Below are positions 3,209 to 49,003 of a stretch of 64,000 bases of DNA, piece by piece. This DNA is from Thraustochytrium sp. TN22 (lineage: Eukaryota > Sar > Bigyra > Thraustochytrida > Thraustochytriidae), in NCBI GenBank assembly GCA_013306675.1, contig JABLUY010000041.1, positions 115,755 through 179,754 on the forward strand, in the 5' to 3' direction. Made by a program: the position numbers and the translations under genes. The notes below the pieces were generated by a model. That model saw only the letters and a list, made by a program, of their open reading frames with translations. It did no database searches and was not told the DNA's origin. How positions within the stretch are numbered: position 1 is the first letter of the stretch; each line of letters starts with the position of its first letter.

Positions 3209-3696
3209 CAGAAAGGGGGGAGTCGTGTCACGATGCTGCTACCGGGTGGTACTACAGATGTAATCGCTGATTTTATTCGTGTTTGTGGTGAAGAAGAGGA
3301 AGTTGTTCGACTGTCAATGCGGGGTGGTGCGGATGCCGTGTGCGGATGCGCTTATGTCAAGGGTGGGTTGGCCGGGTGCGCCCCAATCCCGTCCACCTTC
3401 TCCTTTTTTCCCTCGAGTGTGTCTCTCGGCATTTCGAGCAATCGATTATCCGTCTCCCTTGTGAGTCCTTTTGAGATGTCGTGCTACGTCCCCTGTGCGA
3501 CACTCGTTCTCGCTTTCGATGTGATGGTGATGGCGAAGGTGGAGATGGAGGTGGTGGCAAAGTCGCCTCATCCGCGCACCATGCAAGGAGGGCATCCGCT
3601 GGCATTCGCTGGCATCCCAACCCACTCATGGACTCCGGTACCACTCACACACCCACTCACTCACTCACGCTCAACCAACTCGACGCACTCACTCAC
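3209..3696. other. Convergent intergenic region with CACT repeats
   Basis: The 3' ends of the GST-like gene (+) and the repeat-protein gene (-) meet here. Positions 3641-3700 hold imperfect CACTCACTCACT tetranucleotide repeats. No gene is seen. Confidence 0.5.
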
Positions 3697-6600
3697 TCAC
3701 TTGCGGGCGGCGTTGACCGGAGAGAGGACGCCCTCAAAAGCACGCGGGCGCGGGTTGGAGCCGCGCACCGGGCTCGTCTTCTGGGCGAGAATGTTGGAGC
3801 GGCGCTCGGTGGCGAGGTCGAGCTTGTCGGAGAGGGCCTGACGCGAGCGCTCGGCGTTGTTGCTCTGGTTCTCCTGAACAGCCTTGGCGACGTCGCGCGC
3901 GCGCGCCGAGACCTTGGCGGATCTCTTCTGCGTGTCCTCAAGGTGGTTGCTGCGCCGGCGCGTGGCACGGTCGAGCTTGTCGTCGATGCGGCCGGCAAGC
4001 GCCTCACGCTGGCCGTCGGATGCGCCCTGCACGGCAGCGACGATGGCCGCAGCCTTTCCAGTGACCTGAGCAGCGCGCGCCTTGCGCTCGCCGACGGCGG
4101 CCTCGCGGGAGACGGCGGCCTGCTCGAGGCGCGAGTCCATGTCGCGGCGGCGCTGGGAGACGTCGTGGGTCTCGTCGCGCTTGCGGGCCTCGCTAGCAGC
4201 CTCGATGCGGGCGGCGTGCGAGGAGGCCCGCACCTGCTTGGCGTGAATGACGCACTCGCGCGCCGCGGCGGCCTGGTCAAGCTTGCGCACAAGCTCGGCG
4301 CGGCGCGTCTCGGCATCCGACTCGAGCGCCTGGACGGCGGCCTTGGCCTTGTCGCTCTGGAAGGCGGCCTTGGCAGCGACCTCAGCCAAGAGCGCCTCGC
4401 GCGCTGCCTCCGCCTGCTCGAGCTTGGCGTCGAGCAGGCGGCGCTTGGTGGCGCTGAGCTGCGAGGCGCGCTCGCGCAGGGCGGCGCCGGCGCCGGCGAC
4501 GCGGGCGGTCTGCTGGCCCGCACGCGCCTGCTTGGAGAGGAGGACGGCCTCGCGAATCTCGGCGGCCACCTCGAGCTTCTGGTCCATGGTGATGCGCATC
4601 TCGGCGAGACGCTCCTCGGCGAGCGCCGAGGCCTCATCGACCTTGCGCGCCTCGGAGGCGGCGCGCGCCGCGACCGAGGCGAGCATGGAGGCGCGGGCGC
4701 GCTCGGCGAGGTCCAGGCGCTGCTCGAGCGCCTGGCGGCGCGCGGCGGCCTCGGCGCGCTCGCGCTCGCGCGAGGCGACGCTGGCGGCGGCCACCTTGGA
4801 GAGCTCCTGGCCGGCCTTGGCCTGGCGCTGCGCGACCGAGGTGGTGCGCTTCTCGGCGGCATCCTCGAGGCGCTGCTGCAGCTGCGAGCGCTTGCGCTCC
4901 GTCTCGGCCTCGAGCAGCTGCAGGCGGTCGGCGACGCGGCCCGTGTCGCGCGCGGCGCGGCCGCGAATGTCGGACAGCAGGGCGCCGCGCTTCTCGGCGG
5001 CCTGGCCCAGGCGCTGCTCCAGGAGCTCGCGCGCCTGCTCGGCCTCGACGCTCTGGCGGCGGCGCACGTCGGCGCCCGCGGCCTCCACCTTTGCGGCCTC
5101 GTCGCTGGCGCGCGCCTGGACGATGGCCAGCTGCGCGTGGCGAGCGGCCTCGGCCTGGGCCAGGCGCTGCTCCATCTCGGCGCGCTTGGCCTCGGCGGCG
5201 GCGTCGGCCTGGCGGCGCGCCTCCTCGACGCGGCCGCTGCTCGTCGCGGCGCGCTCCTGGCGCTCCTTGAGCTGCGAGGACCGCGCCTCGCTGGCGGCGC
5301 CCAGGCGCTGCTCCAGGGACTCGCGGCGGCGCGCGCTCGCCTCGGAGCGCGCCGCCTGGCCCTCGTCCACCTTGCGCGAGGCCTGTGCGGCACGCGCGGC
5401 GCGCTCCGAGAGCACGCCGTCGCGCGCCTCGCTGGCGCGCGCCAGACGCGACTCGATCGACTGGCGCCGCTGCTGCGCGGCGCCCTGGGCGGACTCCTTG
5501 GCCTGGTCCACGCGATCGCTCTGGCGGCGCGCCTTGCGCACCTTGGCGTCGAGCGCGTCGGCGCGCTTGGTCGCGGCGCCCTCCAGCTTGGCCTGCACCG
5601 CGTCGCGCTGCGCCGAGGCGCGGCCCTCGGCCTCGCGCAGCACCTGCGCGGCGCGCTCCTGCTGGCGGCCGGCGCGCTGGGCCACCTCCTGCAGCGTCTG
5701 CTCGCGCTGCTGCGCGGCGGCCTCCAGCTTGGAGTCGACGCTCTGGCGGCGCGCGGCGCAGGCCGCGGCTGCGGCCTGCGCCGCGCGCTCCACCTTGCCG
5801 GTGGACGCCTGCGCGCGCGCCTTCTTGGCCGAGAGCGACTGCGCGCGCGCCTCCTCGGCGCGCTCGAGCTTGAGCTCGAGCTCCTGGAGCCGAGCCGAGG
5901 CGCGAAGCTCCTGCTCCTCGTTGGCGCGCGCCACCTTGCTGGTGGCCGCCTTGGCCTTGCCGCGCGTCGCGGCCAGGTTCTCCGCGCGCCGCTGGTCCGC
6001 CTCCGAGAGGCGGCAGCCCACCTTGGCGCGGCGCAGCTGCGCCTCGGCCTGCGCCGCGGCGTTGGCCAGCTCCACGCGCTCCGCCAGCCCGTGCGCGCGC
6101 CCGCGCACGCCCTCCAGCGTCTCGGCGCGCGCCTCGGCGGCCTGCGCCAGCCGGCGGTCCAGCGACGCGCGCCGCTCGCGCGCCACCTCGTGCTCGCGGT
6201 CCTGCGCGTCCGAGACGCGGCCCGTGGTGGCCGAGGCGCGGCCCGTCACCTCATCCAGAAAGGACTCGCGCCGCCGGCTCGCCTGCTCCAGCCGGCCCTC
6301 CAGCGTCGCCTGCCGCTCCAGCGAGTCCTTGTGCTCCGCGGCGCGCTTGCTGTGCTGCACCTCCTTGGCGTAGATCACGTTTGCCGCGGCCGACGCCTGC
6401 TGCTGCTCCAGCAGCTTGCTGCGCCGCCGCTGCGCCGACTCCAGCTTGGTCTCCAGCTGCGCGGCCAGCTCCTGGCTCGCGCGCTCCTTGCTCGCCGAGT
6501 ACCGCCGCTGCCGCTCCGTCGACTGCGCGGCGCGCTCCTTGCGCGCGCTCAGAATCTCCCCGCGCTTCTCCTGCGCGCGCGCCAGCCTCTCCGCCAGCGC

Positions 6601-6906
6601 CTCGGGCGTCGCCGTGGACGACCCGCCCACGGACCTCGTCGGGCTCAGCAGCGCCGCGAGCCGCGGGCTGCGCAGGCTGCCTGCCGCGGCCGACGCCGCC
6701 GACGGCCGCCGCGACCGCGTCGGCGTGAACTGCGCCACGTCCACCTCAATCACCGCCGCGCCGCCCTCCTTCGCGCCGCCGCTCTCGCTGCCGTTCGCGC
6801 TGCCGTCCCCGCCGCCGCCGCCGCCGCCGCCGCGCTTGGGCGTCACCGGCGGCTCGCTCGCCGCCGCCAGCGCGCCGCCCTCGCCGCCGTCTGCCGTCAT
6901 CGGCAT
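3697..6906 (-). CDS. 20-copy helical repeat protein, stathmin-like repeats
   Basis: A 1069-residue protein rich in Ala, Arg, Glu and Ser. Residues 1-105 are disordered, with a Gly run and several Ser/Thr-Pro sites. From residue 107 the motif [KR]-L-x2-A-x3-R-x3-[LIV] occurs 20 times, the last copy starting at 1028. The 19 intervals are 47 or 51 residues only (in order 47,51, then 47 eight times, 51,47,51,47,51,47,51,51,51). The sequence is almost proline-free and should form one very long alpha-helix or helical bundle. The closest family I know is stathmin: its tubulin-binding repeats carry a similar KLEAAEERR core and lie 51 residues apart, close to one tubulin heterodimer along a helix. The function is therefore inferred as microtubule or tubulin binding; a generic coiled-coil filament protein is the alternative. 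Large antisense frames here are compositional shadows. Confidence 0.85.
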   Translation of the reverse strand: MPMTADGGEGGALAAASEPPVTPKRGGGGGGGGDGSANGSESGGAKEGGAAVIEVDVAQFTPTRSRRPSAASAAAGSLRSPRLAALLSPTRSVGGSSTATPEALAERLARAQEKRGEILSARKERAAQSTERQRRYSASKERASQELAAQLETKLESAQRRRSKLLEQQQASAAANVIYAKEVQHSKRAAEHKDSLERQATLEGRLEQASRRRESFLDEVTGRASATTGRVSDAQDREHEVARERRASLDRRLAQAAEARAETLEGVRGRAHGLAERVELANAAAQAEAQLRRAKVGCRLSEADQRRAENLAATRGKAKAATSKVARANEEQELRASARLQELELKLERAEEARAQSLSAKKARAQASTGKVERAAQAAAAACAARRQSVDSKLEAAAQQREQTLQEVAQRAGRQQERAAQVLREAEGRASAQRDAVQAKLEGAATKRADALDAKVRKARRQSDRVDQAKESAQGAAQQRRQSIESRLARASEARDGVLSERAARAAQASRKVDEGQAARSEASARRRESLEQRLGAASEARSSQLKERQERAATSSGRVEEARRQADAAAEAKRAEMEQRLAQAEAARHAQLAIVQARASDEAAKVEAAGADVRRRQSVEAEQARELLEQRLGQAAEKRGALLSDIRGRAARDTGRVADRLQLLEAETERKRSQLQQRLEDAAEKRTTSVAQRQAKAGQELSKVAAASVASRERERAEAAARRQALEQRLDLAERARASMLASVAARAASEARKVDEASALAEERLAEMRITMDQKLEVAAEIREAVLLSKQARAGQQTARVAGAGAALRERASQLSATKRRLLDAKLEQAEAAREALLAEVAAKAAFQSDKAKAAVQALESDAETRRAELVRKLDQAAAARECVIHAKQVRASSHAARIEAASEARKRDETHDVSQRRRDMDSRLEQAAVSREAAVGERKARAAQVTGKAAAIVAAVQGASDGQREALAGRIDDKLDRATRRRSNHLEDTQKRSAKVSARARDVAKAVQENQSNNAERSRQALSDKLDLATERRSNILAQKTSPVRGSNPRPRAFEGVLSPVNAARK

Positions 6907-7694
6907 CCGCGCCTGCGTGCGCCCGCCCGCCCGCGCGAGCCTCGCTTCCTCGCTTCGCCGCCTCCTGAGCGCAGAATCCTATTTGCTCTCCGCCTGGATG
7001 CGATTTTCAAATTTTCGAGCTAGCCGCCGCGCCGCCGCGCCGCCGCGCCGCCGCGCCCGCCTAACCGCCGCCGCCGCCGCCGCCGCCGCGAGCTCCGCCA
7101 CGGGCGCGCGGCGCGGGGGCGGGCCCTGCGATCCTCGACTGCCGCCGCGCCGCGCGGCCTGCCCGCCCGCCCGCCCGCCCGCCTGCCTGCCTGCCTGCCG
7201 GGCTCGCCGCCTCGCCTCGCCTAACTGGGACGCGCCTCTGGCTGCGCTCCAGGCAGGCCAGGCCCGGCCGGCCGGCGGGCAACGGTTAGGCCTCTGGCCG
7301 CGCTGCGGGCGGCTGCGGCCGCCGGACGCGCGCGCGCGGTCCCCGCTGCGGGCGCCTTATCGGCCGCGCGCCCCCGCGCCCGCGCCCCGCCCGCGCCCCG
7401 CAGCGCGCCCGCAGCCGCCGGCCCGCGCGCGGCGCGCGGCCGGGACCGCCCCGCAGACGCCCGCAGACGCCCCGCAGAGAAAAACGGAAGCCGCGACACC
7501 GTGCACGAAGACGCGGCCGCGAGGAGAGTCGTGCACGAGAACGCGGATCGCGCGGCATCGCGGGAAAGAAGAGCAGCGGCGAGGAGGAGACGATGATGGA
7601 GGAGGAGGAGGAGGAGGAGGAGGAGGAGCGCGGCGCGGAGGAACGGGGCAGGCAGACCCGGAGCGCGGCGCGGCGCGGCGCGGCGCAGGGAAGC
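6907..7694. other. Divergent GC-rich intergenic region with simple repeats
   Basis: Extremely GC-rich sequence between two divergent genes. It holds a GCC repeat (about 7023-7090), CCCG/CCTG tetranucleotide repeats (about 7165-7200) and a GAG/GGA run (about 7597-7627). An in-frame upstream ATG at 7593 would add a poly-Glu tract to the oxidoreductase but is considered less likely than the ATG at 7695. Confidence 0.5.
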
Positions 7695-9400
7695 ATGGCG
7701 CAGCGCGTGGCGGACGCCGCCGCGCTCGCCCGCGACGGCGCCAGGGTGCATGCGGTAGGTTCGGGCTCGCGGCGCGGCGCGGCGCGGCGCGGCTGGCGCT
7801 TGTTTTCGAAGCGAGAGGGCGCGAGCGGGCGGCGCGCGGGCGGGCGGGAGGGAGCTGACGAGGCGGGGAGGCGGGGACGCAGGAGGTCGATGGCAGGTTC
7901 GTGACGGTGCTGCGCCACCGCGGGAGCCTGTATTGCATGGATAGCACGTGCTACCATGCAGGGGGCCCGCTCGGGAATGGAGATATTGAGGACGTCAATG
8001 GGGAGCCCTGCCTCGTGTGCCCGTGGCATCTCTACCAGGTGGCGCTGGCGGACGGCGGCAAGTACTACAAACCGCTGGTCATGGGGCCCGACCGCAAGAT
8101 GGTGCCCGGTGGCTGGAAGAAGAAGGATCGCGCGCAGCGCACGCACCTTGTCGAGGAGCGCCGCGACGGCATCTACGTCACGCTGGACCGCGAGGGCCGC
8201 TACGATAGCGACGAGTACGGCGGCATGTCCACGTGCGGCGGCGCGAACGCGTCAAGGAGCAACAAACCCGTGCACTCCAAGCGCAGTTTTGGGCTGCCGC
8301 AGCGGAGCGGCCACCTCCTGCGCCAGAACTTGGCCGGCGGGATCCCGGCGCCGGCGCCTCGCCAGCAGCTTGGTGCCGGCGCTGGCGTCGGCGTCGGCGC
8401 TGGCGTCGGCTCGGCAGGCGTGAGCGCGTCGCTCGCGGCGCTCTCCGCCGGCCAGGCGCCCTCTGGCGGAGCGGACGCTGATTTTGACGAGGAGGACGCG
8501 CACGCCTCGACCTCGGCCAGCGACGACTGGCAGCAGCTTGTCGTCGCGAGCGTGGAGCGCGTGGGCGACGCCTGCCTCTCCCTGTACCTGGACGCCACGG
8601 CGCACGAGGCCGCCGATGAGGCCCTGCGTCGCCTGTACCGCCTTGGCGCAGACTTCGGGGACGGGACCATCGTGGACGTGGACGACATTTTTGACACGCG
8701 ACATCTCGACGTCGGCCTTTTCGCCGGCCAGGGCGCTGCTGCGGAGCTCGTCCACCGGCCCTACACGCCCGTGCGCTCGGCCAAGCGCAGCCTGCAGGAG
8801 CGTGGCGCGGGCCATCTCGTTCACCTCGAGGTGCGCCTCTACCGTAACGGCCAGCTCGGCCCGCGCCTCGCGGCGCTGCGTCGCGGTGACCAGGTCTTTG
8901 TCAGACCGGGCACTGCCACGGCCGGCGATTCGCTCTTGGACAAGGCCTTCCCGCCCCTCGCCTCCCTCACACACGTCTTCCTCTTTGCCGGGGGCAGCGG
9001 CATCACGCCCATGCTGCAGGTCATGCAGAACGCCATTGACGCCGGCTCTCGGGGGTTGCGCATCACGCTCGTCTGCGCCAACAAGAGCCTCTCGCGCGCG
9101 CTCGCGGCCGATGCGCTGCATGACCTTGCAAGCCAGGCCCATCGCGCCGGCGTTCCTGTGCGCGTCATCCACTGCCTTACCGACGTGAGCGCTGCGCCCT
9201 CGGATGCCGCGCCGCTGGAGTTTGTCGCCGGGACGCGCGTGGACGACCTCAACTTCCTTCGTGACCGGGTAGGGCTCTCGGCCGCGCCTTCTGCCGTCGT
9301 GGGGTGCTGCGGCCCACAAGGATTTATGGATGCACTCCGTGCGGCACTTGAGGGCCAGCTGGGCGTGCCTGCCTCACGCTGCGTCTTTTACTCGGGGTGA
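7695..9400 (+). CDS. Rieske [2Fe-2S] + FAD/NAD(P) oxidoreductase fusion
   Basis: Two exons (7695-7754 and 7883-9400) give 525 residues. The N-terminal Rieske domain has CYH (Cys43, His45) and CPWH (Cys66, His69), a complete 2Fe-2S ligand set. A Gly/Ala/Ser-rich linker (about 135-225) leads to a ferredoxin-reductase-type module with RPYTPV (312-317) for FAD, GGSGITPM (390-397) for NAD(P), and a C-terminal CGPQGFM. It resembles a cytochrome b5 reductase fused to a Rieske protein, so it should move electrons between NAD(P)H, FAD and the iron-sulfur cluster; the acceptor is unknown. Splicing is supported because the first exon supplies the beginning of the Rieske fold (VHA joined to EVDGRF) and no ATG suits the second exon alone. 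Confidence 0.85.
7755..7882 (+). other. Spliceosomal intron, 128 nt, phase 0
   Basis: The donor is GCG|GTAGGT and the acceptor GACGCAG|GAG. A CTGAC branch-like site lies about 28 nt before the acceptor. Removing the intron joins two reading frames in phase and restores the beginning of the Rieske domain. Confidence 0.8.
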
Positions 9401-9955: not shown

Positions 9956-11629
9956 ATGCAGTGCGACGCGACGCAGTGCCATCAGGTCGCGCTCGTGGCG
10001 AGTGCCATGAAGCGTGCGAGGGGCGGCGGCTCCGGCGGGGCCGCCGGCACGGGCAGCTTTAGGTCCAGGTTCGGCCAGCGCATCCTCAAGACCTCGGGCG
10101 ACGGCTCGTACGTGCGCCTGCACGGGTCGCGAGACGGCTCGGCTGCGGCCGCTGGGTCCTCGCGTGAGCAGCTCAAGCAGCAGCAGCGCGAGCGCCAGCA
10201 GGCTTCGGCCAAGCCGGAGCAGCAGCGCAAGAACTTTGGCACGGCCACCTTCGGCGCCGATGCGCCGAGCCAGCAGCGGTTGCCTCAGGTGCACGTGCAG
10301 CAGCGTGGCGCCGAGGCGCTCGCTTCTGCGGCACGCATCCAGCTCCAGCCGCTGCCGCAGTACCACGGACAGATTTCCACGCAGCCCGGCAGCTCCTGGC
10401 AGGCCCCCGGCCGTGATGACGCGGCCGCTGTGCCCCAGGCAAGTCCGAGCGCCGCGGTGCCGAATGCGGCTGGGTACGTTAGTTACCTGGCGCAGCCTTC
10501 TGTGAACGCAGTCCAGGTATCTGGCTACGCAGCTCCCGCATCTGGCTATGCTGCCCCGGCACCCGGCTTTGCTGCACCCGCATCCGGCTATGCCGCACCA
10601 GCATCTGGCCACGCTGCGTATACATCGGGCTACGCAACCTATGCAAGCTATGCGCGGCCAACTTCTGCCTTTGGAGGCAACGAACCTCAAAAACCTTTGG
10701 AGGTCTCTCCAACAGCCGCAAGGCCTTCGCTCGCGGACCTTCGCTCTGCGTCGCAACAGCGACCGTCAAACGACGCACAATCGGCCTATCGCGCTTCGCC
10801 GCCCGCGGGTGGTCTCATGTACGGCTATGCGCGAGCAAGTCAAGCGGAGCATCATCATCATCAGCAACAGCAGCAGCAGCAGCAGCAACATCAACCACAG
10901 GGGTTTTACGCTCAAGCTTCCCCAAGCGCGCAGCAGCACCGGAGCGCACGAAGCCAGCGCAGGCGCGACCCGGACGTTTTTGCCGAGGAGGTGGAGGAGT
11001 CCAAGGAGAGGCCCACCAAGGACGAGGCGAACGCGCGAATGGTCAAGAGCGAGAAAGACCGCCTCTTTTACAGCCGGAAGCACCGGTCCGTGGAGTACAC
11101 GCCATGCACGACCAAAGAATACCTCAAGACCAAACCGGACAAGTACTACGAGCTGGGCAAGCTGCAGGTGGATCTCAATACAGAGGAGGTGGCGCGCAAG
11201 CGGGAGAAGATCGAACGCATGAAGTCCTACGGGGCCAAACTGCGTGCGATCAATGGGGCGCCCTCCCCGGGCCGCGAGACGGGCAACAATCAGGTGGATG
11301 ACGCACTTGCCAACAGCTGCCAGGCGCGACGCGTTTATCAGCAGCGCGTGGGGCCGGAGGTGCGCGAACAGGCTCTGCGCGAGAAGCGCAAGGCCAAGTC
11401 CGCTCGGCACCGTGCGCTCGAGTTCGCCAAGAGCGTCCCGAAGCCCAAGGTGCGCACACCACAGGACTGCATCTCTCCCGCCTCGTCGCCCGCGCGCGGC
11501 TTCGCGAGGGGTAGCACTGATGCGGTGTCGGGCAAGGCGCTTTCGGATCTCGAGCGGCTCGAGCTTGAGCACGACCGTGCGCGAGAAGAGATCGAGGCCA
11601 TTCGTCGCGACCTCGCCATGTGCGAGTGA
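9956..11629 (+). CDS. Disordered Ala/Gln-rich protein with conserved C-terminal block
   Basis: A 557-residue protein. Residues 1-170 are basic and Gln-rich. About 175-235 hold repeats of SGYAAPA type, followed by a His/Gln run encoded by CAT and CAG repeats (about 300-315). The only block that looks conserved is about 375-440: YTPCTTKEYLKTKPDKYYEL, then a highly charged helix. That pattern (tyrosine and lysine-rich, then G-x-L-x-x-D-L and a charged helix) faintly recalls vertebrate JHY and related ciliary proteins; I give this low weight. A second ATG at 10007 is a possible start. It converges on the lipase gene. No enzymatic function is suggested. Confidence 0.65.
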   Translation: MQCDATQCHQVALVASAMKRARGGGSGGAAGTGSFRSRFGQRILKTSGDGSYVRLHGSRDGSAAAAGSSREQLKQQQRERQQASAKPEQQRKNFGTATFGADAPSQQRLPQVHVQQRGAEALASAARIQLQPLPQYHGQISTQPGSSWQAPGRDDAAAVPQASPSAAVPNAAGYVSYLAQPSVNAVQVSGYAAPASGYAAPAPGFAAPASGYAAPASGHAAYTSGYATYASYARPTSAFGGNEPQKPLEVSPTAARPSLADLRSASQQRPSNDAQSAYRASPPAGGLMYGYARASQAEHHHHQQQQQQQQQHQPQGFYAQASPSAQQHRSARSQRRRDPDVFAEEVEESKERPTKDEANARMVKSEKDRLFYSRKHRSVEYTPCTTKEYLKTKPDKYYELGKLQVDLNTEEVARKREKIERMKSYGAKLRAINGAPSPGRETGNNQVDDALANSCQARRVYQQRVGPEVREQALREKRKAKSARHRALEFAKSVPKPKVRTPQDCISPASSPARGFARGSTDAVSGKALSDLERLELEHDRAREEIEAIRRDLAMCE

Positions 11630-21529: not shown

Positions 21530-21591
21530 GACGATGCTGAAACTTGAGGGATACATCAATGACGATGCCGAAACTTGAGGGATACATCAAG
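21530..21591. repeat. Two 31-bp tandem direct repeats
   Basis: Two near-identical units, 21530-21560 and 21561-21591, share the core AAACTTGAGGGATACATCAA. They lie in the convergent gap (21293-21586) between the RhoGAP-like gene and VPS15 and touch the VPS15 stop codon. Confidence 0.85.
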
Positions 21592-24500
21592 CCCATGCCT
21601 TGACAATGCCGTCGCGCGAAGCAGAGAGGAGGAAGCCCTGTGCGGAGCTCGTGCCGAGGCTCACCGAGGCATTGAGAAAAGCCAGGTCAAGGATGGCGTC
21701 CTCGTGGTTGGTGGACGGGTGCGGCAGGCCGCGGCCCTCGCCAGAGAGCTGCTGCTGTTGACGCTGCTGCAGTTGCTGCGACTGCAAGCGCTGCAGCTCC
21801 TGGTGGCCGGCAATGTCCTCGCGACAGACAACGACCTTGTCGAGCGCCTCCCAATACTGCTTGACGCCGTGGCCAAAGTCCTGGTCGAAGATGGAGTAGC
21901 ACAACGCCGGATCCTGGTGCCAGTAGCGGATGCGGCGGTCCGTACCGGCCGTCATGACCGTCGACGGGATGTGTGCGGAGTGGGTGCGCACGTCGGACAT
22001 GTCAAACGGGCACACGACGGCGCGCACAGAGGGCTCGAGCCGCGAGGTGGTGGCGTCGAGCTCGTCGACAGCAAGCTTACTCCAAAGCGTTGAGGCCGGC
22101 AGCGCGGGCGAGCCGTGGTGCGACGTGAGCGCGCGCACGTCGATCTCCTCGAGCGGCTCCGTGCCCCCGCACTCCTTTGCCGTGGCGCGCGTGGGCACGG
22201 TACGAAAGGCCTGCTCCACGAGACCTGTCGCCACGTTGTACAGCGTGAGAGCGTTCAGGCCCGCCGCCACGTACACGAAGGGGTCGCTGCAGGTGGCGCG
22301 CGACAAGTAGAGCCGGTGAATGCGCGCGTGGCTCGGATGCCGCCACGCTTTGAGCAGGATGGAGAAGCGGAGGTCGTACAGCAAGATGATGCCCCGCGAG
22401 GTGCCAGCAACGAGCCAGATCGGGTCGCCGTCAGCCGGCACGGCCAGCGACGTGATGACGCCGGCCTGCGGGCCGACGCGCAGGACCCACGCGCGCTTGC
22501 GCGCGCGCAGGTCCCACCCATGGATGGCGCCCGCCTCGCTGGCAAAGACCAGCATCGACTCGCTCATGGCGGGGAAATGGCACACCGCGCGCACCGGGCC
22601 ATCGCGCGCCACATTCAGCTCCAGCACCGTGCTCGCGCCCAGGCTGCGCTGCTGCGCACCGCGCTGCGAGAAGCTCTGTGTGGAAGACCCTCCGGCGCCG
22701 CTGCCGGCGACCGCGCTGCCGGCACCGCCAGAGTCCGCCCCGGCACCCGCACTGCCGCCAGCGCCGCCAGCGCCGCCGGTGCCGCTGCTGCCGTCGCGCT
22801 CGTCGCGCAGACTGGCGTCCGCGGCAGCGCGCGCCTGCGCGAGGCGCGCCTGCGACTTGTCCAGCAGGCGGTCCTCCGAGGTCCCGTCCCCGGATGTGAT
22901 GACCACCGTGCTGGAGGGCCGCAGCGCATCGTGCGTCTCAAGAGCCGCGCGAGTCACGTCCAGGGCGTGTTCCACCTTGAACACGTGCACGCTGCCGCTC
23001 GTGGACGCTGCAGCGACCGAGTGCGTGTTTTCGATGAAGCAGAGGTCGGCGATGCAGCCACCCTGGCTCGCATACGTGAGCTTGGGCCGGATGCCGTAGC
23101 CCTCCTCAAGGCCGGCCGTCATCCACAGGCGCACCGTGCCGTCGTCCGACCCGGTCGCGAAGAAGAGGTTGTCCTGCGAGGCCACCACGCGGTTCACCGC
23201 GCTGTCGTGCCCGTACAGATTGGCCGCCAGCACGCCGCGCGGCCTCCACGGGCGGTCGTTCGGCATCGCCGCGGCGTCGCGCGTTGACCCAGCGCTGGCC
23301 GGCTCCACGATGCTGCCCACCGCGGCCGATGGCCGCCGCACCGAGGCCACATAGTGCGAGCCGTCTAGCTTCCGCATCGTGCCCATGTCGGGCGGCAGCG
23401 GCGGGACCTCGAGAGCGCGGATGCGCTGCGAAAGCCGCAGGACGCCGCCGGACAGCGCCTCCGCTGTGTCCGGTACGCCCGCGCCGCCGTGCCGCCGCGA
23501 TCGCGCCACCACGCCGTACCGGTTCACGATGCGCTTGAACTCGGGCGGCTGCTGCTGCAGCAGCACACCGGCGCCAAGCGCGGACGCGGACTGGTCCAAG
23601 TAGTCAGCGTACCGGCTGTGGATGGCCAGCGTCACGAAGCTCTGGTCCGGCACCAGCACCGCCTGCAGAGACGAGGCGTGGTTTGGCCCGCCGCGCAGGC
23701 TCTGCGTGTACGCGTCCGGGAGCGTCTTCTCGTCCTCCAGCAGGGCGGCGCGCGTGCCGCGTGATAGACTTGCGGACGCCTTGAAGAAGCCCTCTAGCGC
23801 CTGCACACCGCGCGAGTCGGACAAGGGCCCCGAGGCGCTGTCGCCAGGCGCCGCCCCGCCAGACGCGGCAGTCGACGACTTCGCCGACCGCGGCGAAGGC
23901 GGTGTGGCCCCGGACCCCAGCGAGGAGGAGGCCGCTGAGGCCTGCCTGCCCTGCATCCCGCGGCCCTCGTACTTTTCGACCACGGTGTCGTACGTGTCGC
24001 GCGGGATGCGATCGACCAGCATCTCGCGCAGCAGCAACTCGTTCTCGCGCACGTCCTTGGAGTACCCGAGGAGGAGCGCGTTCTCCGTGTTGCCCTTTTT
24101 CAGGTACGGGGCGAGCAGTCGCACGATGGTGACCTGTGTCTCAATGAGGCCCATGCGCTTTGACGCCACGAGCGCCGCCAACACGCGCACCACGGTGTTG
24201 CGGATCCACAGGCTCGGGTGGTAGACCAGCGGAACGATCTTGGCCGTCAGCTCCGACATCATTGTCACGTCCAAGAGGCCGAGCTGCGTGAGGCTAAACA
24301 CACACGTCAGCGTGCGCTCCACGACCAGCTCCTCAAACTCGTACAGGCTCTGCACAATGCAGGGCAGAAGGAATTGCTGCAGCGCGAGCGGGCCGACCAG
24401 AGCGCTCACGCCCGGAATGTGCTCGAAGAAGGTTGCGCGCAGCTGCCAGTCGTTGCGCTCGCTCAGACACGTGATGAGGATTGGCAGCACGTGGCTGCTC

Positions 24501-27112
24501 GTGCGCTCGCGCCCGAAGAACAGGCACAGTCGCGTGATATCGCGCAGCAGCGTTCGCCGCACCACGGCTGGCTGCTCGATCATGTTGCTGACGAAGTCCT
24601 GCACAGCATCGTGCAGCTCGGTCAGCTGCGCGTCGAAGGACGGCGCCTTGCCAGGCGCGGCTACGGAGCCGGCCGCGGCGGGCCGCTCCGCTCGGCGGTC
24701 TTTGCCGGCGCCGGTGCCGGCGCCGGCGCCGGTGCCGGCAGTGGCGGTCTCCTCGGGCTGGCTCACGGTGTGCGCACGGGAGAGCTCCAGGAAACGCGCG
24801 CTGGCCGCAGCGAGCCGCGGCAGGCACTCGGCAAAGGTGAGACGCGCATTGAGCGAGGAATCCTGCTTGAAGCGCGTCAGCGCCTGGAAGATGTACGCCG
24901 GGAAGATGCGGCTATCAGAGCTCGGCAGCGACCGCACGTTGCGCACGAGGTCCGTCAGGACGCGCAGCGCGGTGCAGCGCACGAGCGATGAGGTGTCGCT
25001 CAGCTCCAGCACCACATACGGCAGCACGCGTTGCAGGCGCGTCTCATCGTTGCTCAGGCGCGACAGCCGCAGCACCAGGCAGAGCGCCGCCACCTTGGTG
25101 CTTGGGTACCGCACGTGACGCATGGTGGCCACGAGCATGTGGATCACCATGAGGACGCCATTCGCTTCTTCGTTCACGTTGCGCGCCGCCGGACTCGGCG
25201 CCAGAGGCGCGCGCTCCTCGGCGGCCGATGCGTCGACGCCGCTGGCCGCCTCCGCGGCGCCGGGGAAGCCGGTGAGGAAGAAGTCCTCGCTAGCCGTCTC
25301 ACTCCGCCGCGCCAGCGGCCCGGAGGTCTCGGGCGCGGCACCGCTGCTACTGCTCTGATCGCTGCTATCGCCCCCCTGGCGGGCGAGCGCATCCATCTGC
25401 TGGTCCACCGTGGCGCTCGCATCCTTGACAATGTCGCGCATGGCAGGCGGGATATCCAGCGCCTCCAAATCCTTGATGATCTTGTGCGTGTGCGTCAGCA
25501 AGTCGCGCACCGCGCGCTCGTCCTCCGCCTTGTCGCGTTGGTCGGCCAGCGTCTCGCTCCAGTCCTCCTCAATGGCGCCTGGCGCGCCATCCTCCTCGTG
25601 CACGGTGCGCATGGGCGCGTCCCGGAGGCTCACGTCGAGCGGCGCGTGGCGGCGCGCCCACTCGGCGGCGCGCGCCGCAAAGTAGCGCGCACCACGCGGG
25701 TCGTCCACGCCGCACGTGGCACGCACAATCTCCCCATAGCGGCGGCAGACCGCCCACACGCGCTCGTCAGGAACATCGTACTCCTCACGCAAAAAGTCGC
25801 GAAAGAACGGATGTAGGCAGCTCGCAAAGTGCTCCGGGAAGAGGGAGCCGGTAAACTCTGAGAGGTAGGCGTCCGCCGATTTGCGCTGCGTGGCGTCCGC
25901 CTGCAGCATGCTCTCCAAGAGCGGGCGCACCGCCGGGTCGCGCACCTTGGCGAGCTTGGCATCCAGGAGCGCCGCACGCGCCTCGGCACTCTGGTCCGGG
26001 TTCGCGTACCGCAAGACCTCGGCGAGCTGGAAACATGGCTCGCCATCGCGGAAGAGCTCGGCGATGACGCACCCGAGCGAGAAGATATCCATGGACGGCC
26101 GCAGCCGCGTGGATCGACTTTGCGTGTCGAAGCTGTAGCTGCGCTGGCGCTTGACGAGCCCCTTGAGCATGGCCCCGCCGCCCGCCTTGGATGCCGGCGA
26201 GCCGGCCAGGCCCGCGACGCCGCCCCGGTCGTCGCGGCCGGCGCCCGCGCCCGCGCCGCTGCCGTCCCCGCTCTCGGCGCCGTCCGTGTCGCCGTCCGCG
26301 CCGGCCGCTGAGGCTGCCTCGCGCGCGCGTCGCGCCGCGGCCAGCTCCTCGCCCTCCAGCGACGCGGACGCCTCGGCCAGCTCCTGTTCCGCGTCCATCA
26401 CTGGCACGTCCGGCTCCATCATGACGCTCAAGACAGACGCGCACTGCGGGGGCGCCGAGTCCAGGAGCGAGATGTCGATGATGGACGTTGGCGACCGGAA
26501 GCGCTCCGGCGCCACGCAGCAGCAGTCGCGCTTGTTGCTCGAGTCGAAGAAGTAGTTGTACGGCGCCGTGTCGTCCAGCGGCAGATACGTTGGCTTGAAC
26601 GGCGCGAAGTCCGACAGCAGCACCCACGTGTACGAGGTGACCAGAAAGTTCTCCGACTTGATGTCGCCGTGCGCCAGCCCCGATGCGTGGCACTGCGAGA
26701 GCGCCTTGAGCATCTGGTAGGCGATCCACCGCTTCTCCATCATGCTCAGGAACGGCCGCGTGCTGAGCCGGTCGAGCAGGTTGCTCGCCGTGCACTGGCG
26801 CATCACGAAGGCTACGCGCGCCGTCTCGCCCCACCGGCTGTACGCCAGCACATTAGGGTGCGTGCTGGGCCTCACCTGGTCGCGCAGATCCTCGATCTCC
26901 TTGCGCAGCTGCCGCAGCACCTTGGGGTCACTTCCGGGGATCTTCTCGTACACCTTCACCACCACCATGTTGCCGCTCGACTGGCACCGCGCCGATTTGA
27001 GGAACTTGCCATTCCACAGCTCATCATGGAACGCCAGCCGCGCGTCGTCCAGCGCCGCCACCAGCTGCGCCGCCTCCTCGCCCGCGCGCCCGGTGGGCAC
27101 GACGTTGCCCAT
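21587..27112 (-). CDS. VPS15: VPS15 (PIK3R4), regulatory subunit of class III PI3-kinase
   Basis: An 1841-residue protein; human VPS15 has about 1360. It begins MGNVVP, the N-myristoylation signal of the family, which fixes the start even though the frame is open to 27820. Residues 25-330 are the unusual kinase domain, with HGDIKSEN (148-155), SDFAPFKPTYLP (from about 167), YNYFFDSS and a weak glycine loop. HEAT-like repeats follow (about 650-1000). C-terminal WD40 repeats begin with GHDSAVNRVVASQ (about 1300) and run to the end. The extra length is in acidic, Ala/Gly/Ser-rich linkers (for example about 1440-1475). It should scaffold VPS34 and Beclin 1 on endosomal and autophagic membranes. 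Divergent from the scaffold gene. Confidence 0.93.
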   Translation of the reverse strand: MGNVVPTGRAGEEAAQLVAALDDARLAFHDELWNGKFLKSARCQSSGNMVVVKVYEKIPGSDPKVLRQLRKEIEDLRDQVRPSTHPNVLAYSRWGETARVAFVMRQCTASNLLDRLSTRPFLSMMEKRWIAYQMLKALSQCHASGLAHGDIKSENFLVTSYTWVLLSDFAPFKPTYLPLDDTAPYNYFFDSSNKRDCCCVAPERFRSPTSIIDISLLDSAPPQCASVLSVMMEPDVPVMDAEQELAEASASLEGEELAAARRAREAASAAGADGDTDGAESGDGSGAGAGAGRDDRGGVAGLAGSPASKAGGGAMLKGLVKRQRSYSFDTQSRSTRLRPSMDIFSLGCVIAELFRDGEPCFQLAEVLRYANPDQSAEARAALLDAKLAKVRDPAVRPLLESMLQADATQRKSADAYLSEFTGSLFPEHFASCLHPFFRDFLREEYDVPDERVWAVCRRYGEIVRATCGVDDPRGARYFAARAAEWARRHAPLDVSLRDAPMRTVHEEDGAPGAIEEDWSETLADQRDKAEDERAVRDLLTHTHKIIKDLEALDIPPAMRDIVKDASATVDQQMDALARQGGDSSDQSSSSGAAPETSGPLARRSETASEDFFLTGFPGAAEAASGVDASAAEERAPLAPSPAARNVNEEANGVLMVIHMLVATMRHVRYPSTKVAALCLVLRLSRLSNDETRLQRVLPYVVLELSDTSSLVRCTALRVLTDLVRNVRSLPSSDSRIFPAYIFQALTRFKQDSSLNARLTFAECLPRLAAASARFLELSRAHTVSQPEETATAGTGAGAGTGAGKDRRAERPAAAGSVAAPGKAPSFDAQLTELHDAVQDFVSNMIEQPAVVRRTLLRDITRLCLFFGRERTSSHVLPILITCLSERNDWQLRATFFEHIPGVSALVGPLALQQFLLPCIVQSLYEFEELVVERTLTCVFSLTQLGLLDVTMMSELTAKIVPLVYHPSLWIRNTVVRVLAALVASKRMGLIETQVTIVRLLAPYLKKGNTENALLLGYSKDVRENELLLREMLVDRIPRDTYDTVVEKYEGRGMQGRQASAASSSLGSGATPPSPRSAKSSTAASGGAAPGDSASGPLSDSRGVQALEGFFKASASLSRGTRAALLEDEKTLPDAYTQSLRGGPNHASSLQAVLVPDQSFVTLAIHSRYADYLDQSASALGAGVLLQQQPPEFKRIVNRYGVVARSRRHGGAGVPDTAEALSGGVLRLSQRIRALEVPPLPPDMGTMRKLDGSHYVASVRRPSAAVGSIVEPASAGSTRDAAAMPNDRPWRPRGVLAANLYGHDSAVNRVVASQDNLFFATGSDDGTVRLWMTAGLEEGYGIRPKLTYASQGGCIADLCFIENTHSVAAASTSGSVHVFKVEHALDVTRAALETHDALRPSSTVVITSGDGTSEDRLLDKSQARLAQARAAADASLRDERDGSSGTGGAGGAGGSAGAGADSGGAGSAVAGSGAGGSSTQSFSQRGAQQRSLGASTVLELNVARDGPVRAVCHFPAMSESMLVFASEAGAIHGWDLRARKRAWVLRVGPQAGVITSLAVPADGDPIWLVAGTSRGIILLYDLRFSILLKAWRHPSHARIHRLYLSRATCSDPFVYVAAGLNALTLYNVATGLVEQAFRTVPTRATAKECGGTEPLEEIDVRALTSHHGSPALPASTLWSKLAVDELDATTSRLEPSVRAVVCPFDMSDVRTHSAHIPSTVMTAGTDRRIRYWHQDPALCYSIFDQDFGHGVKQYWEALDKVVVCREDIAGHQELQRLQSQQLQQRQQQQLSGEGRGLPHPSTNHEDAILDLAFLNASVSLGTSSAQGFLLSASRDGIVKAWA

Positions 27113-27970
27113 GCCGCTTCGCTTCGCGCCGCGCCGCGCCTGCGCCGCCGCGCCCGCCCCGCCCCCCGCGAGCCGCGCCGCCGGGCCCGGACCACGCGGC
27201 CCGCAAGGCCGAGCGGCGCGCCCGCGCTCGCCCGCCCCGCGCCGCCGCGCCGCCGCCGCCCGCGCGCGCGAGAGGAGTCGCGGCGAGCCCGAGCGGAGAG
27301 GAGTCTGCTCGCAGCCGCCGCGTCCGGAACCCCGTCGCGATTTCCTTTCCGGACGGACGGCGACGCCCACCTGGGCCCGGCCCCTGCCACTGCGCGCCCC
27401 TGCCCGCGGCACGGGTCGCTCTCGAGCGCGCGCGCTCGAGAGAGAGCGAGCTTGCGAGCTTGCGAGCTCATTCTGACTCGGATGGATGCGTGGCACAGCA
27501 TCGATCGAAGTGTCGCGGGCCGGGAGGTGTTTGTTCACTGCGCTTTTGCCGATGCCTGAGGTGCCCGCACACGAGTCGCAGCGCTGCGCGCAGAGGACGC
27601 ATGCCCAGAACTTGCAGGCTGGCCCGCCGACGAAGAGATCAAGTCTCCGTTGGGCAAGAGCTTGCTGCAGTGCTGGCTGCTCCGAGTCTCCGGCGCCGCT
27701 GCATGCTGTGATGACTTCGGGGCGGCAGCTGAGTGGACTGTGCGGGTGACCCGTCCGCACACCCCGTCGCACACCTGAAAAGCGAGCCACGCGCCGCGCA
27801 AGAGAACGGAGACTGCGCACACAAGGTCGCGTCTGCCGCGCTCCGCCGCGTCGCGCAGGCGCTGGCTGGCTTGCTCGCTTGCTTGCTTGCGCAGTGGCGC
27901 TTGCTTGCTTGCTTGCTTGCTTGCGCAGCGGCGCTTGCGCAGCGTCGACAGCTCGGCGCGCCTTGGCGCC
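27113..27970. other. Divergent intergenic region with CTTG repeats
   Basis: About 860 bp between the VPS15 start and the scaffold start, presumably holding both promoters. CTTG tetranucleotide repeats lie at about 27866-27925. Open frames run through here on the minus strand upstream of the VPS15 ATG but look non-coding (Arg/Ala-rich, no domain). Confidence 0.5.
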
Positions 27971-30900
27971 ATGCGGTCGCCGACGCTGCCGACCTCGCCC
28001 GGGTCTGCGTATGACCCGGAGGCCGTGGAGGCGCTGGACCTGGACAAGGCGCTAGAAGGCCGCGGCGGCGACTTTTCGACGGCCGCCAGCGTGCTGAGAG
28101 CCGGCATTCCAGAGTACGATGCCGTGCGCGACGCTTTCTGCACGTACACGGACTCCAAGTCGTTCCGCCAGTCGCCGTACTTTCGGCAGCAGCTGCAGGA
28201 GCAGCACCAGGAGATCGACTTGGAGGCGATGAGCCCGAGTCGCGACCCCCGCAAGACGCTCAAGCGCCCGCGCCCGCGTGCCGTGGACACGCGCGCCTCG
28301 GGCTCGCCCGTCATGGCGCCGCGGCCGTCGCTTTCCCCGCCGCCCCCGCTCGTGCCCGGCCTCAAGGGGTCCGCCGCTGGCTCGCGCGAGATGCACCTCA
28401 TGAAGCTCGCCTTCTTACGGGAGGGCCTTGTGGAAGAGGTTGAGCGCAAGAGCAACTTCCTGCACCGTCGCCTGGAGCGCGGCGTCGCCGTGGAGCACTG
28501 GGTCGCAGCGGCAGTCGACGCCCACGTGCACGCGGCGGCGCTCGGGCTGCGGCCGACACTGGAGCTTGTGCAAAAACGCACGGTCCAGGTTGTCGAGGCC
28601 GTCCAGGCGTGGCGCGCCGAGCTTCGAGACCGTCGTGCGGTCTTTGCGTGGCGCCACTACAACTATCTGCTCAAAATGGCCGTGGACCTGGGATTCCTCG
28701 AGCGCGTCCTGCCTGGATCCCGCACCAGCCTGCTCTCGGCGCTCGGGCTCGCGGCAAGACGCAACCCGCTCCTCACACTCGTAGACCTTGACGCGCTCGC
28801 GGACCAGCAGCACGCGAGTCAGTCGCCCGAGTGCGCGAGCTTCCCGGTCGTCCTGGACGCCGAGACGGCAGAAGACGATGCGAACCTGCAGGAGCGCCTC
28901 ATCGCGCTTGAGCTCACGCAGGTTGGCGAGTCCCCGCGGCCGCGCAGCGTGCCGACAGAGGAAGAGCCTGTCACACAGCGGAGGCTCGAGCTCGCGGCCG
29001 TCGTGCTGCTCCAGGAAGAGCGCCAGCACGGCCGCCTCGTCCCCGATGCCGCGGCGACGGGGACCGGCCCCGTCGCCACGTGCGGAGATGATTTAAAGGA
29101 GTCCTTCTTGCCGCAATTCCGCGCGCAGGAACCCGCGTCGGCGCAGGACGACAGCGGCTTTGCTGCGGCGGCCGGTGCGGCGTCGGCGCGCGAGCGTGAG
29201 GGCCTCCAGTCGCGCCAGGCGGGCATCCTGGCAGTCCCAAGCACAAACCGCCGCCGTGTCACTGAGCCGCCGGCCGTGGCGTCGCCGCAAGTGCAGCATC
29301 AGTCCATGAGGTCGCCTCCACCGGTGCTCGTTCAGAAAAAGGCGACGAGAAAGCGGCCCTCGGCGTGGCGGCCAGCGCCCGAGGTCTCTGGGCTGACAGC
29401 GCTGAGCATCCGCGAGCTCGCCCGAAACCCATCCGAGGTGGCTCAGGGCGTCCTAGGCGCGGTGCGAGTTCTCTTGCAGAATCCGCGCGAGCCACTGCCG
29501 CCGCGCGCCGAGTTTCGCTGGGACCGTCTCGTCGCTGTGCTCCTGGACGACCCGATCAAGCTTTTGCGCAGCCTCGCGGCCTTTCGCGGGGCGAGGGACA
29601 TCACGGTCTCGCGTGCCAAGTTCCTGCAGCCCATCTTCAAGGACCCGCGCTTCGACCCGGCCAGTATCCGCGTCGTGAGCCCGGTTGCAGCACAGCTCTG
29701 CGTCTGGTGCCTCGCGCGCGCGAGCAAGTATGTGCTGTCCGAGGAGCTCTGTTTCGACTTCCACTCGCACCTGGACCACACGGACCGGCACTCCGAGGCT
29801 GTCATCACCGGCCTGCGTCAAGAGATTCATGACCTGCGCCAGCACATTCTCGGCGAGAAGCGTGCGGCCGCCGACGTGGACGAGGCGCCGGCGCAGCAGC
29901 GCGCTTGCGCCAGCCTGGAGCTCGAGGGCATGCGCATCGAGCAGGACCTCGCGTGCCCGCAGGACGTGGTCGTCTGGCGGCCCAACCGAAAGGAGCCTCG
30001 CAAGATCACGGCCGCCTTCGTCGAGCTGCACACCGGGGGGCAGGTCATGCGAGCCGCACGCTTCGAGGACCGCGAAGCGCGTGCAGCCTTCGCGCTCCAG
30101 GTGCTCGAGCTTGTCGCCGTGCAGGATGAGGCCCAGGGCGATCTCTTGTGGCGCGGTGGTCTGCGCGACCCTTCACTTGGCGCGGTCCTCGCGAGCGTCT
30201 GCCGCGTGCATCGCCCGGCACCGCACCTCGTCGTCGCCATACTGGACGTGCACTCTGGGGAGCGCACCCGTTTCCAGTTCCCGGAGCCGCAGGTCGCAAC
30301 GTTACTCGGCCTGATCTCGCCGCCCGACGCGCGGGGCTTGCAGCACGGCCTCGCGAACGCAGGCATGACTGCGGCCATGTGCCGTGCGATCGTGCGTTCA
30401 GGTGGCGAGGTGACGCTCCCTATCCCGCACCCGGTCTACGGCGTCGAGGTTTCGGGCGTGCGGCTTCACATGGCGCTCAAGGTGCTGGAGGACGGTGGAG
30501 TGCTGCTCAAGGCGCAGGAGCTCTCCGGCGAGGAGAAGCCAGAGGGCGACATGCGACCCGGGGTACCGCTGCTCACGGCGAGGCTCGACCGCAAGGAGCT
30601 CGACGCGCTCGGCCTCCCTTCACTGCCACGGCTGTTGGAGCGCCTCCAGATCTACGTGACCCCAGCCGGGGACCGTGGCCTGCGCATCAATCCTGTCCTC
30701 TTCGAGGCGGAGGATGTCTTCATCAGCGGCCACCACGTCGACAAGCTCCGAATCTGCGTGCAGGAGCGGGGAAGCATGTGCAGTTTGGAGGCCGATCTGC
30801 ACGGCGGCGGTAAGCTCCGCAAGGAAGCCACGGTAGAGAGCTTCCGCGCTGAGCTGGAGCAGCAACGACAACAGGACCAGGACCAGGACCAGGACCAGGA

Positions 30901-48674: not shown

Positions 48675-49003
48675 GGTTGGCGCACGTGCTGCGCGTGGGT
48701 CTATCCGCTCCGGCAATCGCCCTGCCGCCCGCCAGCGCGCCGCCGCGCGTGCCGACTGCCGCGCGACTTGATGTGGAGCCTCTCGCCGCGCCGAGGTCGC
48801 TCGGCTCCAGGGGTGCGCGCCGAGGCTCGGAAAGCATGTTCTCCAACGCATCTGCGGCGGCGTCAGGCGGCACTGCGCTGCGATCAATCAAACGATCGCT
48901 CCAGCGGCGAGTCCGAGCGCGACGAAGACAAGAGCGCGGCGCGGCGCAGCCGTGGCGCGGTGCGGCGCAGTGCGCCCTGCTCTCGCAGCAAAGTGAGCGT
49001 GTC
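48675..49003. promoter_or_regulatory. Shared divergent promoter region
   Basis: 329 bp between the starts of the charged coiled-coil gene (-) and the CCDC42/CFAP73 gene (+). Both promoters must lie here or in the transcribed leaders. No TATA box or defined element could be assigned. Confidence 0.4.

Follow-up and report, generated by a model that had tools for sequence, protein, structure and literature searches.

We found that a gene on the minus strand of the analysed DNA stretch of 64,000 nucleotides (the window) encodes a predicted helical protein in which a stathmin-like motif recurs 20 times, at intervals of either 47 or 51 residues. Sequence comparisons support a specific resemblance of these repeats to stathmin at the level of the motif. 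The gene product may be a natural poly-stathmin-like tubulin scaffold, a reading that we favour tentatively and place just short of probable, tubulin binding being suggested by analogy with stathmin.

The repeat gene and its 47/51-residue ruler

The G+C content of the minus-strand ORF at codon positions 1, 2 and 3 is 0.80, 0.56 and 0.95. A peak at position 3 is common to 6 of the 6 neighbouring genes measured, while the antisense frame on the plus strand (1180 aa) peaks at position 1, and the minus frame is therefore regarded as the coding one. Together with the coherent repeat this rules out that the open frame is a mere G+C-rich artefact; the repeat identity by codon position (0.49, 0.44 and 0.49) is uninformative on coding status. 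The coordinates of all features are given in Table 1.

Table 1. Features of the repeat gene, in positions of the window
Feature	Position	Strand	Details and basis
ORF of the repeat protein	3697..6906	minus	single exon, 1069 aa, ATG start, TGA stop; strand backed by codon-position G+C
N-terminal tail, residues 1-100	6607..6906	minus	low complexity, predicted unstructured, 5 of 7 [ST]P sites; sequence, AlphaFold model
Repeat rod, 20 motif copies, residues 107-1042	3781..6588	minus	motif scan, shuffles; proline-free at 102-1045
Copies 3-10, residues 205-580	5167..6294	minus	each interval to the next copy 47; motif scan, shuffles
Copies 11-19, residues 581-1027	3826..5166	minus	intervals 51, 47, 51, 47, 51, 47, 51, 51, 51; motif scan, shuffles
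Copies 11-12, 51 apart, second Stathmin candidate	4957..5181	minus	E 2.04, 13 bits, genome search
Copies 19-20, 51 apart, best PF00836 match	3775..4008	minus	20.7 bits (121-aa piece), 20.5 bits (genome search); below cut-off
C-terminal tail, residues 1043-1069	3700..3780	minus	mostly unstructured in model, 2 of 7 [ST]P sites; sequence, AlphaFold model

A pattern scan of the protein for [KR]LxxAxxxRxxx[LIV] yielded exactly 20 matches, starting at residues 107, 154, 205, 252, 299, 346, 393, 440, 487 and 534 (copies 1-10) and 581, 632, 679, 730, 777, 828, 875, 926, 977 and 1028 (copies 11-20). The 19 intervals are 47 (12 cases) or 51 (7 cases) and never any other value, and as no double interval occurs, no copy is skipped. 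Their order is 47, 51, eight times 47, 51, 47, 51, 47, 51, 47, 51, 51, 51. The original prediction of 20 copies with only these two spacings, of a uniform 47 from copy 3 to copy 11 and of a mainly alternating 51/47 pattern from copy 11 to the end is thus borne out, and the ruler can be taken as established. With the looser pattern [LIM]..A...R there are 23 matches, three of them off the ruler. In 2000 residue shuffles of the repeat region the motif occurred on average 0.087 times and at most twice, which rules out a chance origin of the copies.

The two repeat lengths differ by an indel of four residues, for which the best-scoring site lies after repeat residue 37 or 36. MAFFT placed the gap after residue 36 in 12 of 12 rows of 47 residues; in 6 of 7 rows of 51 residues the additional residues fall there too, row 18 being the exception. 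Mean identity between repeats is 29-32% at lags 1-9, with no indel besides this one, and because the repeats are only about 30% identical, yet without any other indel, their spacing looks selected. Identity at lag 2 (32.1%) is not truly above that at lag 1 (31.8%); a recent tandem duplication is therefore ruled out, and the 51/47 alternation does not reflect a fresh duplication of a two-repeat unit.

There is no proline at residues 102-1045 and no Trp at residues 107-1040. The hydrophobic residues form a stripe with a period of 3.625 residues per turn (power 11.8, maximum 5.05 in 200 shuffles), so that the stripe runs near a straight helix, neither pure heptad nor pure hendecad. Two repeats are predicted as one helix with a pLDDT of 96.7. 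The full-length AlphaFold model, made without an alignment, has a mean pLDDT of 59.1 and contains helices at residues 101-295, 303-683, 690-795, 807-961 and 964-1042; at this confidence it can count neither for nor against an unbroken rod. The N-terminal tail is unstructured in this low-confidence single-sequence model. All seven [ST]P sites of the protein are in the tails and none in the rod, four of them of the form [ST]Px[KR]; these are sequence sites, not phosphorylation data.

Resemblance of the repeats to stathmin

When the whole protein was compared with Pfam, Stathmin (PF00836) was the sole family at E≤10 (E 0.012, 16.1 bits, under the curated cut-off of 24.7 bits). The strongest Pfam signal comes from copies 19-20, with E 0.00045 and 20.7 bits for a piece of 121 aa (positions 3781-4143 of the window) and E 0.0102 in a six-frame search of the whole genome, in which the only two Stathmin candidates were both located within the repeat gene. 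Even the best score, 20.7 bits, falls short of the curated cut-off. Among 18 overlapping two-repeat windows Stathmin was the most frequent family (4 of 18 and 5 of 18 in two runs), and with reversed windows it was found in 0 of 18, among the 25 families listed out of 27. The rod without copy 20 matched no Pfam family, the same as seven permuted controls.

A two-repeat profile searched against 177,635 PDB sequences gave 21 matches at E≤10, all of them stathmins (best E 0.008). They represent 21 of the 22 stathmin sequences found in a PDB search with stathmin-4, the absent one being the R4 chain 4f61_I. A single-repeat profile had no match in the PDB, and NCBIfam likewise gave no match. These E-values (PDB 0.008, Pfam 0.012) are marginal and none is decisive. 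Profile-profile comparison by hhalign with four vertebrate stathmins gave no support for similarity: the probabilities were 2.7% and 1.6%, and the E-values, which refer to a single comparison, 0.017 and 0.032, the stathmin alignment being shallow, with four typed-in sequences.

We also scored the repeat matrix along stathmins. With the full matrix the two best offsets are the two tubulin-binding repeats, 51 residues apart, in 4 of 4 vertebrate stathmins, and four sub-matrices, including one from copies 3-10 alone, placed both stathmin repeats at the top in 16 of 16 combinations. For each stathmin, none of its 3000 shuffles attained the score of the pair spaced by 51 residues. None of 3000 matrices with permuted columns did so, and of 3000 matrices permuted so as to preserve the face one did for each stathmin. 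These tests are not independent, since the four stathmins are homologous and so are their two repeats. An absolute-score control with nine neighbouring ORFs (maximum 5.9) was dropped as too lenient, as the filament protein RIB43A of the same genome reached 13.7 at its single best offset and other frames of its locus up to 30.3; within the repeat protein itself 28 off-ruler offsets score above 5.9, the highest 19.8. Taken by themselves the matrix scores carry little weight. A permutation test therefore replaced it. Out of 1000 face-preserving permutations 304 matched the RIB43A score, and out of 1000 local shuffles 20 did; for the best offsets of the four stathmins the numbers were only 0-6 and 0-1. 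On this test the likeness to stathmin depends on residue order, beyond the amphipathic stripe. The link to stathmin as originally predicted thus stands as a specific motif resemblance by PDB profile, Pfam and matrix, the PDB profile matching stathmins with two repeats and nothing with one; it does not extend to hhalign, a narrow stathmin HMM (see below) or the Pfam cut-off.

Relatives with the same 47/51 pattern, which the original prediction proposed to look for, did not turn up: no paralogue or relative with this ruler was found in the host genome, and 8 pattern matches in viral contigs and 97 in bacterial and archaeal genomes yielded no confirmed relative. The latter collections are viruses and prokaryotes and hence say little on relatives. 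A search of the genome gave six matches, five inside the repeat gene and one on another contig (E 0.0017), which was rejected as a paralogue because two stop codons interrupt it and the frames at that locus are unrelated. Among the titles and abstract openings of the open-access literature matches listed, no protist or many-repeat stathmin was found. The host, a eukaryote whose genome is small, has at least one ciliary-skeleton gene, that for RIB43A (E 5.6e-41), which suggests a ciliated cell.

A putative tubulin scaffold and alternative readings

As a scaffold the rod would be an alpha-helix that runs almost straight for about 940 residues, or about 140 nm provided that it is unbroken. It would carry 20 stathmin-like repeats and be flanked on both sides by unstructured tails, whose proline-directed sites of the phosphorylation type may serve its control. 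Each repeat would present one narrow face along the rod, made up of L2, A5, R9, L13, A20, V27 and L49. In stathmin a pair of repeats spaced by 51 residues holds two tubulin dimers. By analogy we propose one dimer per repeat here, so that a single molecule would gather many tubulins into a row. Stathmin's tandem 51-residue spacing applies to part of the array, 7 of the 19 intervals. The 51-residue pairs would reproduce stathmin's own spacing, while a 47-residue step would lack about one turn of the helix where stathmin has its linker, keep the face in phase and call for tubulins arranged with stronger curvature or in some other way.

In terms of helix length 47 residues correspond to 70.5 Å and 51 residues to 76.5 Å. 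A straight dimer repeat of about 82 Å and a bend of 24 degrees per dimer serve as reference values. On these values the straight repeat would take about 55 residues of helix, and with the 47-residue pitch each dimer would have to bend about twice as much as with the 51-residue pitch. A pitch of 47 residues does not suit a straight protofilament, which counts against a simple line-up of 20 dimers on a microtubule. A more far-reaching version, possible but doubtful in our estimation, is a natural poly-stathmin with room for as many as 20 tubulin dimers in a row, the pitches 51 and 47 setting two curvatures, which would give a protist a genetically encoded template for curved strings or rings of tubulin; the stathmin repeat would then be older than animals or have evolved in other lineages too. 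If true, a natural stathmin relative or mimic with 20 repeats in a non-animal would offer an existing ruler for assembling tubulin into ordered, curved oligomers, and the effect of one-helix spacing on protofilament curvature would become testable. If the partner is not tubulin, there is still a helix of up to 140 nm with a 47/51 spacing held through deep divergence, which would point to another periodic partner.

The best surviving alternative, which we consider unlikely though to be weighed seriously, is a self-associating coiled-coil rod or filament protein whose L/A/R/L/A/V/L face packs on another copy, without tubulin. Here 47 would be three hendecads plus two heptads and 51 the same plus a four-residue stutter, so that the ruler would keep the coiled-coil phase and serve filament assembly. 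The Ala-rich amphipathic helix with its single stripe and the difference of one stutter between the two pitches fit this, as does the first two-repeat profile used against the PDB, in which stathmins ranked top and ATP synthase b made up 5 of 9 matches. A narrow vertebrate stathmin HMM also cannot tell the rod lacking copy 20 from controls: its best domain has 1.7 bits, a value attained in 19 of 400 permuted and in 39 of 400 face-preserving controls. For its full score of -79.6 the corresponding numbers are 298 and 275 of 400, and the reversed rod attains it as well. Against it stands the stripe itself, 3.625 rather than the 3.5 residues per turn of a canonical two-stranded coiled coil, a value that mixed heptad/hendecad coils could yield. 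Arg lies in the middle of the face at all ruler positions (it is part of the motif definition, but missing from no ruler position), which would be odd for a coiled-coil core. A profile of reversed rows with the same stripe matched troponin I (0.16) and no stathmin in the PDB, and in the matrix tests the stathmin resemblance rests on residue order and not the stripe alone.

Improbable, in our view, is a microtubule-lattice binder like MAP9, a long helix crossing protofilaments or running obliquely with one contact per repeat, with a pitch that follows other distances in the lattice than the 8-nm dimer repeat. MAP9, as described in a preprint (PMC12667982), is a precedent for a long helix that acts as a ruler with two pitches of nearly the same length, the rod is basic (net +47 over 934 residues), and Pfam MAP7 matched weakly in 1 of the 18 two-repeat windows (E 0.4); however, the spacings and the lack of Trp differ from MAP9, and 21 of 21 PDB matches are stathmins. 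Least probable of all is a scaffold for another regular partner, for instance a lattice of the cilium or cortex, or a calcium-binding light chain of the kind bound by Sfi1. The strict ruler and the RIB43A gene speak for it; against it stand the absence of Trp and of a Pfam Sfi1 match and the finding of only stathmins among the 21 matches in the PDB, which includes doublet-microtubule structures.

Comparison with known systems

Sfi1 carries some twenty centrin-binding repeats on one helix, a number similar to that of the rod, each of about 33 residues with a Trp motif, neither of which is found here. The microtubule-binding helix of MAP9 (PMC12667982) is about 200 residues long, has five pseudo-repeats with 35/36-residue spacers and a Trp-containing motif and spans adjacent protofilaments. 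It shares with the rod one long helix, regularly spaced contacts and two near-equal spacers; the rod departs from it in its 47/51 spacing, its number of repeats and its lack of Trp.

Stathmins are known as animal proteins with two tubulin-binding repeats on a single long helix and an N-terminal beta-hairpin that caps alpha-tubulin. The KL..A...R core of stathmin and RB3/stathmin-4 (PF00836; PDB 4i4t_E, 1sa0_E and others) is common to the rod repeats, and the second core follows exactly 51 residues on, as in the 51-residue pairs. In the typed-in stathmin sequences S/TP sites precede the first repeat, as they do in the N-terminal tail here, and in our reading of the alignment the EENNN linker corresponds to the site of the four-residue indel. 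A single long helix would be common to both, for the rod by prediction. In contrast to stathmin, the rod protein has 20 repeats instead of two, a mixed pitch, an Ala/Arg-rich composition and a score below the Pfam cut-off, is presumably not of animal origin, and has no recognisable N-terminal cap, the Pfam match stopping short of the N-terminal part. A 2013 paper on metazoan innovations names stathmin as a microtubule regulator. The closest parallel in architecture is offered by the stathmin-like domains R1 and R4 (PDB 4f6r_C and 4f61_I), reportedly engineered by Mignot et al. in 2012, in which stathmin repeats are modular within one chain, as in the rod; pieces of R4 align to stathmin-4 at 51-residue shifts. 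R4 is designed, has no 47-residue steps and with four repeats marks how far engineered stathmin chains reach, whereas the rod is natural and has 20.

Repeat array and gene setting

The minus-strand frame encodes a predicted rod with 20 copies of the motif [KR]LxxAxxxRxxx[LIV] and, just as the original prediction had noted, intervals of only two lengths; of the 19, 12 are 47 and 7 are 51 residues. Residue shuffles (n=2000) gave at most two copies each. The array is flanked by tails of ~100 residues at the N-terminus and ~27 residues at the C-terminus. All 13 prolines lie at residue ≤101 or ≥1046, and seven [ST]P sites, four of them [ST]Px[KR], are located in the tails. A hydrophobic stripe runs along the rod at 3.625 residues per turn (power 11.8, maximum 5.05 in 200 shuffles), and at 99.3 degrees per residue the repeat positions L2, A5, R9, L13, A20 and V27 fall at 136-211 degrees, with the motif arginine R9 at 174. 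From an alignment of 18 two-repeat rows AlphaFold2 predicted a single helix over residues 2-101 (mean pLDDT 96.7); the full protein without alignment was predicted as mostly helical at low confidence (mean pLDDT 59.1).

Mean identity between repeats is 29-32% from lag 1 to lag 9, too low for recent copies, and recent duplication of a 98-residue unit does not explain the C-terminal 51/47 alternation. That repeats this diverged show no third interval suggests selection on the spacing. The indel separating 47 from 51 scores best after repeat residue 37 or 36, which in our reading would be the place of stathmin's EENNN linker, counted along the stathmin sequence.

The genome comprises 37.9 Mb in 453 contigs. 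The source cell is a eukaryote and probably ciliated, since the window carries VPS15-type, Jhy-domain and DUF4200 genes, and RIB43A is encoded outside it. The size of the genome and its long frames free of introns suggest a protist. The Jhy family is ciliary, and DUF4200 occurs in ciliary CCDC42/CFAP73-type proteins. The VPS15-type frame is an instance of the long, intron-poor genes in this genome. In the WW-domain frame a p25-alpha match stays slightly below its cut-off and a dynein-stalk (MT) match is weak. The frame antisense to the repeat gene is most likely a shadow of G+C-rich third positions.

Features of the repeat gene and its setting
Feature	Position	Strand	Remarks
Repeat protein ORF	6906..3697	-	1069 aa, single exon
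Open frame antisense to repeat gene	3481..7023	+	1180 aa; G+C highest at codon position 1
Rieske ferredoxin domain and oxidoreductase NAD-binding domain	7901..9400	+	single frame
Jhy-domain protein	9956..11629	+	Jhy domain E 7.2e-13
VPS15-type kinase	21587..27820	-	helical and WD40 domains; single 2077-aa frame
WW domains (three stretches), TPR-like repeats	27887..34969	+	2360-aa frame
DUF4200 protein	48317..50122	+	E 6.4e-34
RIB43A gene	contig C163:43286-44350, outside window		one match, E 5.6e-41

Resemblance to stathmin

With the whole repeat protein, Stathmin was the sole Pfam family at E≤10 (E 0.012). It was also the commonest family among 18 overlapping two-repeat windows (4/18, best E 0.00045), and again among windows cut in register (5/18, best E 0.015, a value that Phasin reached too in one window). 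Reversed windows gave Stathmin in 0/18, among 25 of 27 families listed. A six-frame search of the genome yielded two Stathmin candidates (E 0.0102 and 2.04), both in the repeat gene and on copies 51 apart. The rod without copy 20 matched no Pfam family, like column-permuted rods (none in 7/7), hence the best Pfam signal rests on copies 19-20.

Among 177,635 distinct PDB sequences, the in-register two-repeat profile matched 21 at E≤10, and each of them is a stathmin or stathmin-4 chain (best E 0.008 and 0.011, the remainder 1.2 to 7). A search of the PDB with stathmin-4 itself lists 22 sequences, these 21 and the R4 construct 4f61_I. An earlier, badly registered profile gave nine, four stathmins (including the best two, E 0.025 and 0.026) and five ATP synthase b chains; a one-repeat profile gave none. 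A one-family list alone is no proof, as reversed rows returned seven troponin I (best E 0.16) and one Rab effector among eight matches, with no stathmin. An HMM of four vertebrate stathmins does not set the rod apart from controls: its best-domain score was equalled by 19/400 permuted and 39/400 face-preserving controls, its full score by 298/400 and 275/400. The link to stathmin made in the original prediction is partly supported, by Pfam and PDB matches with marginal E-values but neither by the curated Stathmin cut-off, which the protein missed, nor by hhalign of repeats against vertebrate stathmins (probability 2.7% and 1.6%).

We also slid a position matrix built from 19 repeats along four vertebrate stathmins. 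In 4/4 the top two offsets were the two tubulin-binding repeats, and all remaining offsets were negative. Matrices from copies 1-10, 11-19, 1-17 and 3-10 gave identical leading offsets (16/16), so this result is independent of copies 19-20. The 51-spaced pair score was equalled by 0/3000 shuffles of each stathmin, 0/3000 permuted matrices and, for each stathmin, 1/3000 face-preserving matrices (permuted within hydrophobic and within polar columns). For the single best offset, face-preserving permutations reached the score in 0/1000 (STMN1), 5/1000 (STMN4), 5/1000 (STMN2) and 6/1000 (STMN3), and in 304/1000 for RIB43A, 994/1000 for the DUF4200 protein and 801/1000 for the Jhy protein; RIB43A's best score is explained by composition and amphipathicity. 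The repeat protein itself has 28 off-ruler offsets above 5.9, the highest 19.8. Because homology links both repeats within a stathmin as well as all four stathmins, the matrix results amount to about one test.

Geometry and possible action on tubulin

At a rise of 1.5 Å, 47 residues span 70.5 Å and 51 span 76.5 Å. The latter length had been predicted to approach a tubulin dimer; the length holds, but the straight dimer repeats at ~82 Å and would take ~55 helical residues. It is therefore unlikely that the rod follows a straight protofilament, one repeat to each dimer. In stathmin complexes the bend is taken as 24 degrees per dimer; if 51 residues fit this bend, 47 on an identical path would require ~50 degrees per dimer. 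The rod may instead bind curved free tubulin, take an oblique path as described for MAP9 on the microtubule (PMC12667982) or have another partner.

Were tubulin the partner, each repeat could grip one dimer through its L/A/R face, and the rod might gather many dimers and keep them curved, as a store, template or sequestering device. Vertebrate stathmins can bind two tubulin dimers and are controlled by phosphorylation (PMC3694009), which together with the seven tail [ST]P sites suggests by analogy that proline-directed kinases may control the repeat protein. Gripping, dimer collecting and kinase control all go beyond the sequence facts. No protist or many-repeat stathmin appeared in the titles or abstract openings of the open-access papers listed. 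We do not class the protein in the stathmin family, because it misses the curated Pfam cut-off (PF00836, 24.7 bits). Its closest known counterparts are the stathmin-like domain and the R1 and R4 versions of it (PDB 4f6r, 4f61), R4 having four repeats; if tubulin binding is rightly supposed, the rod would work like these.
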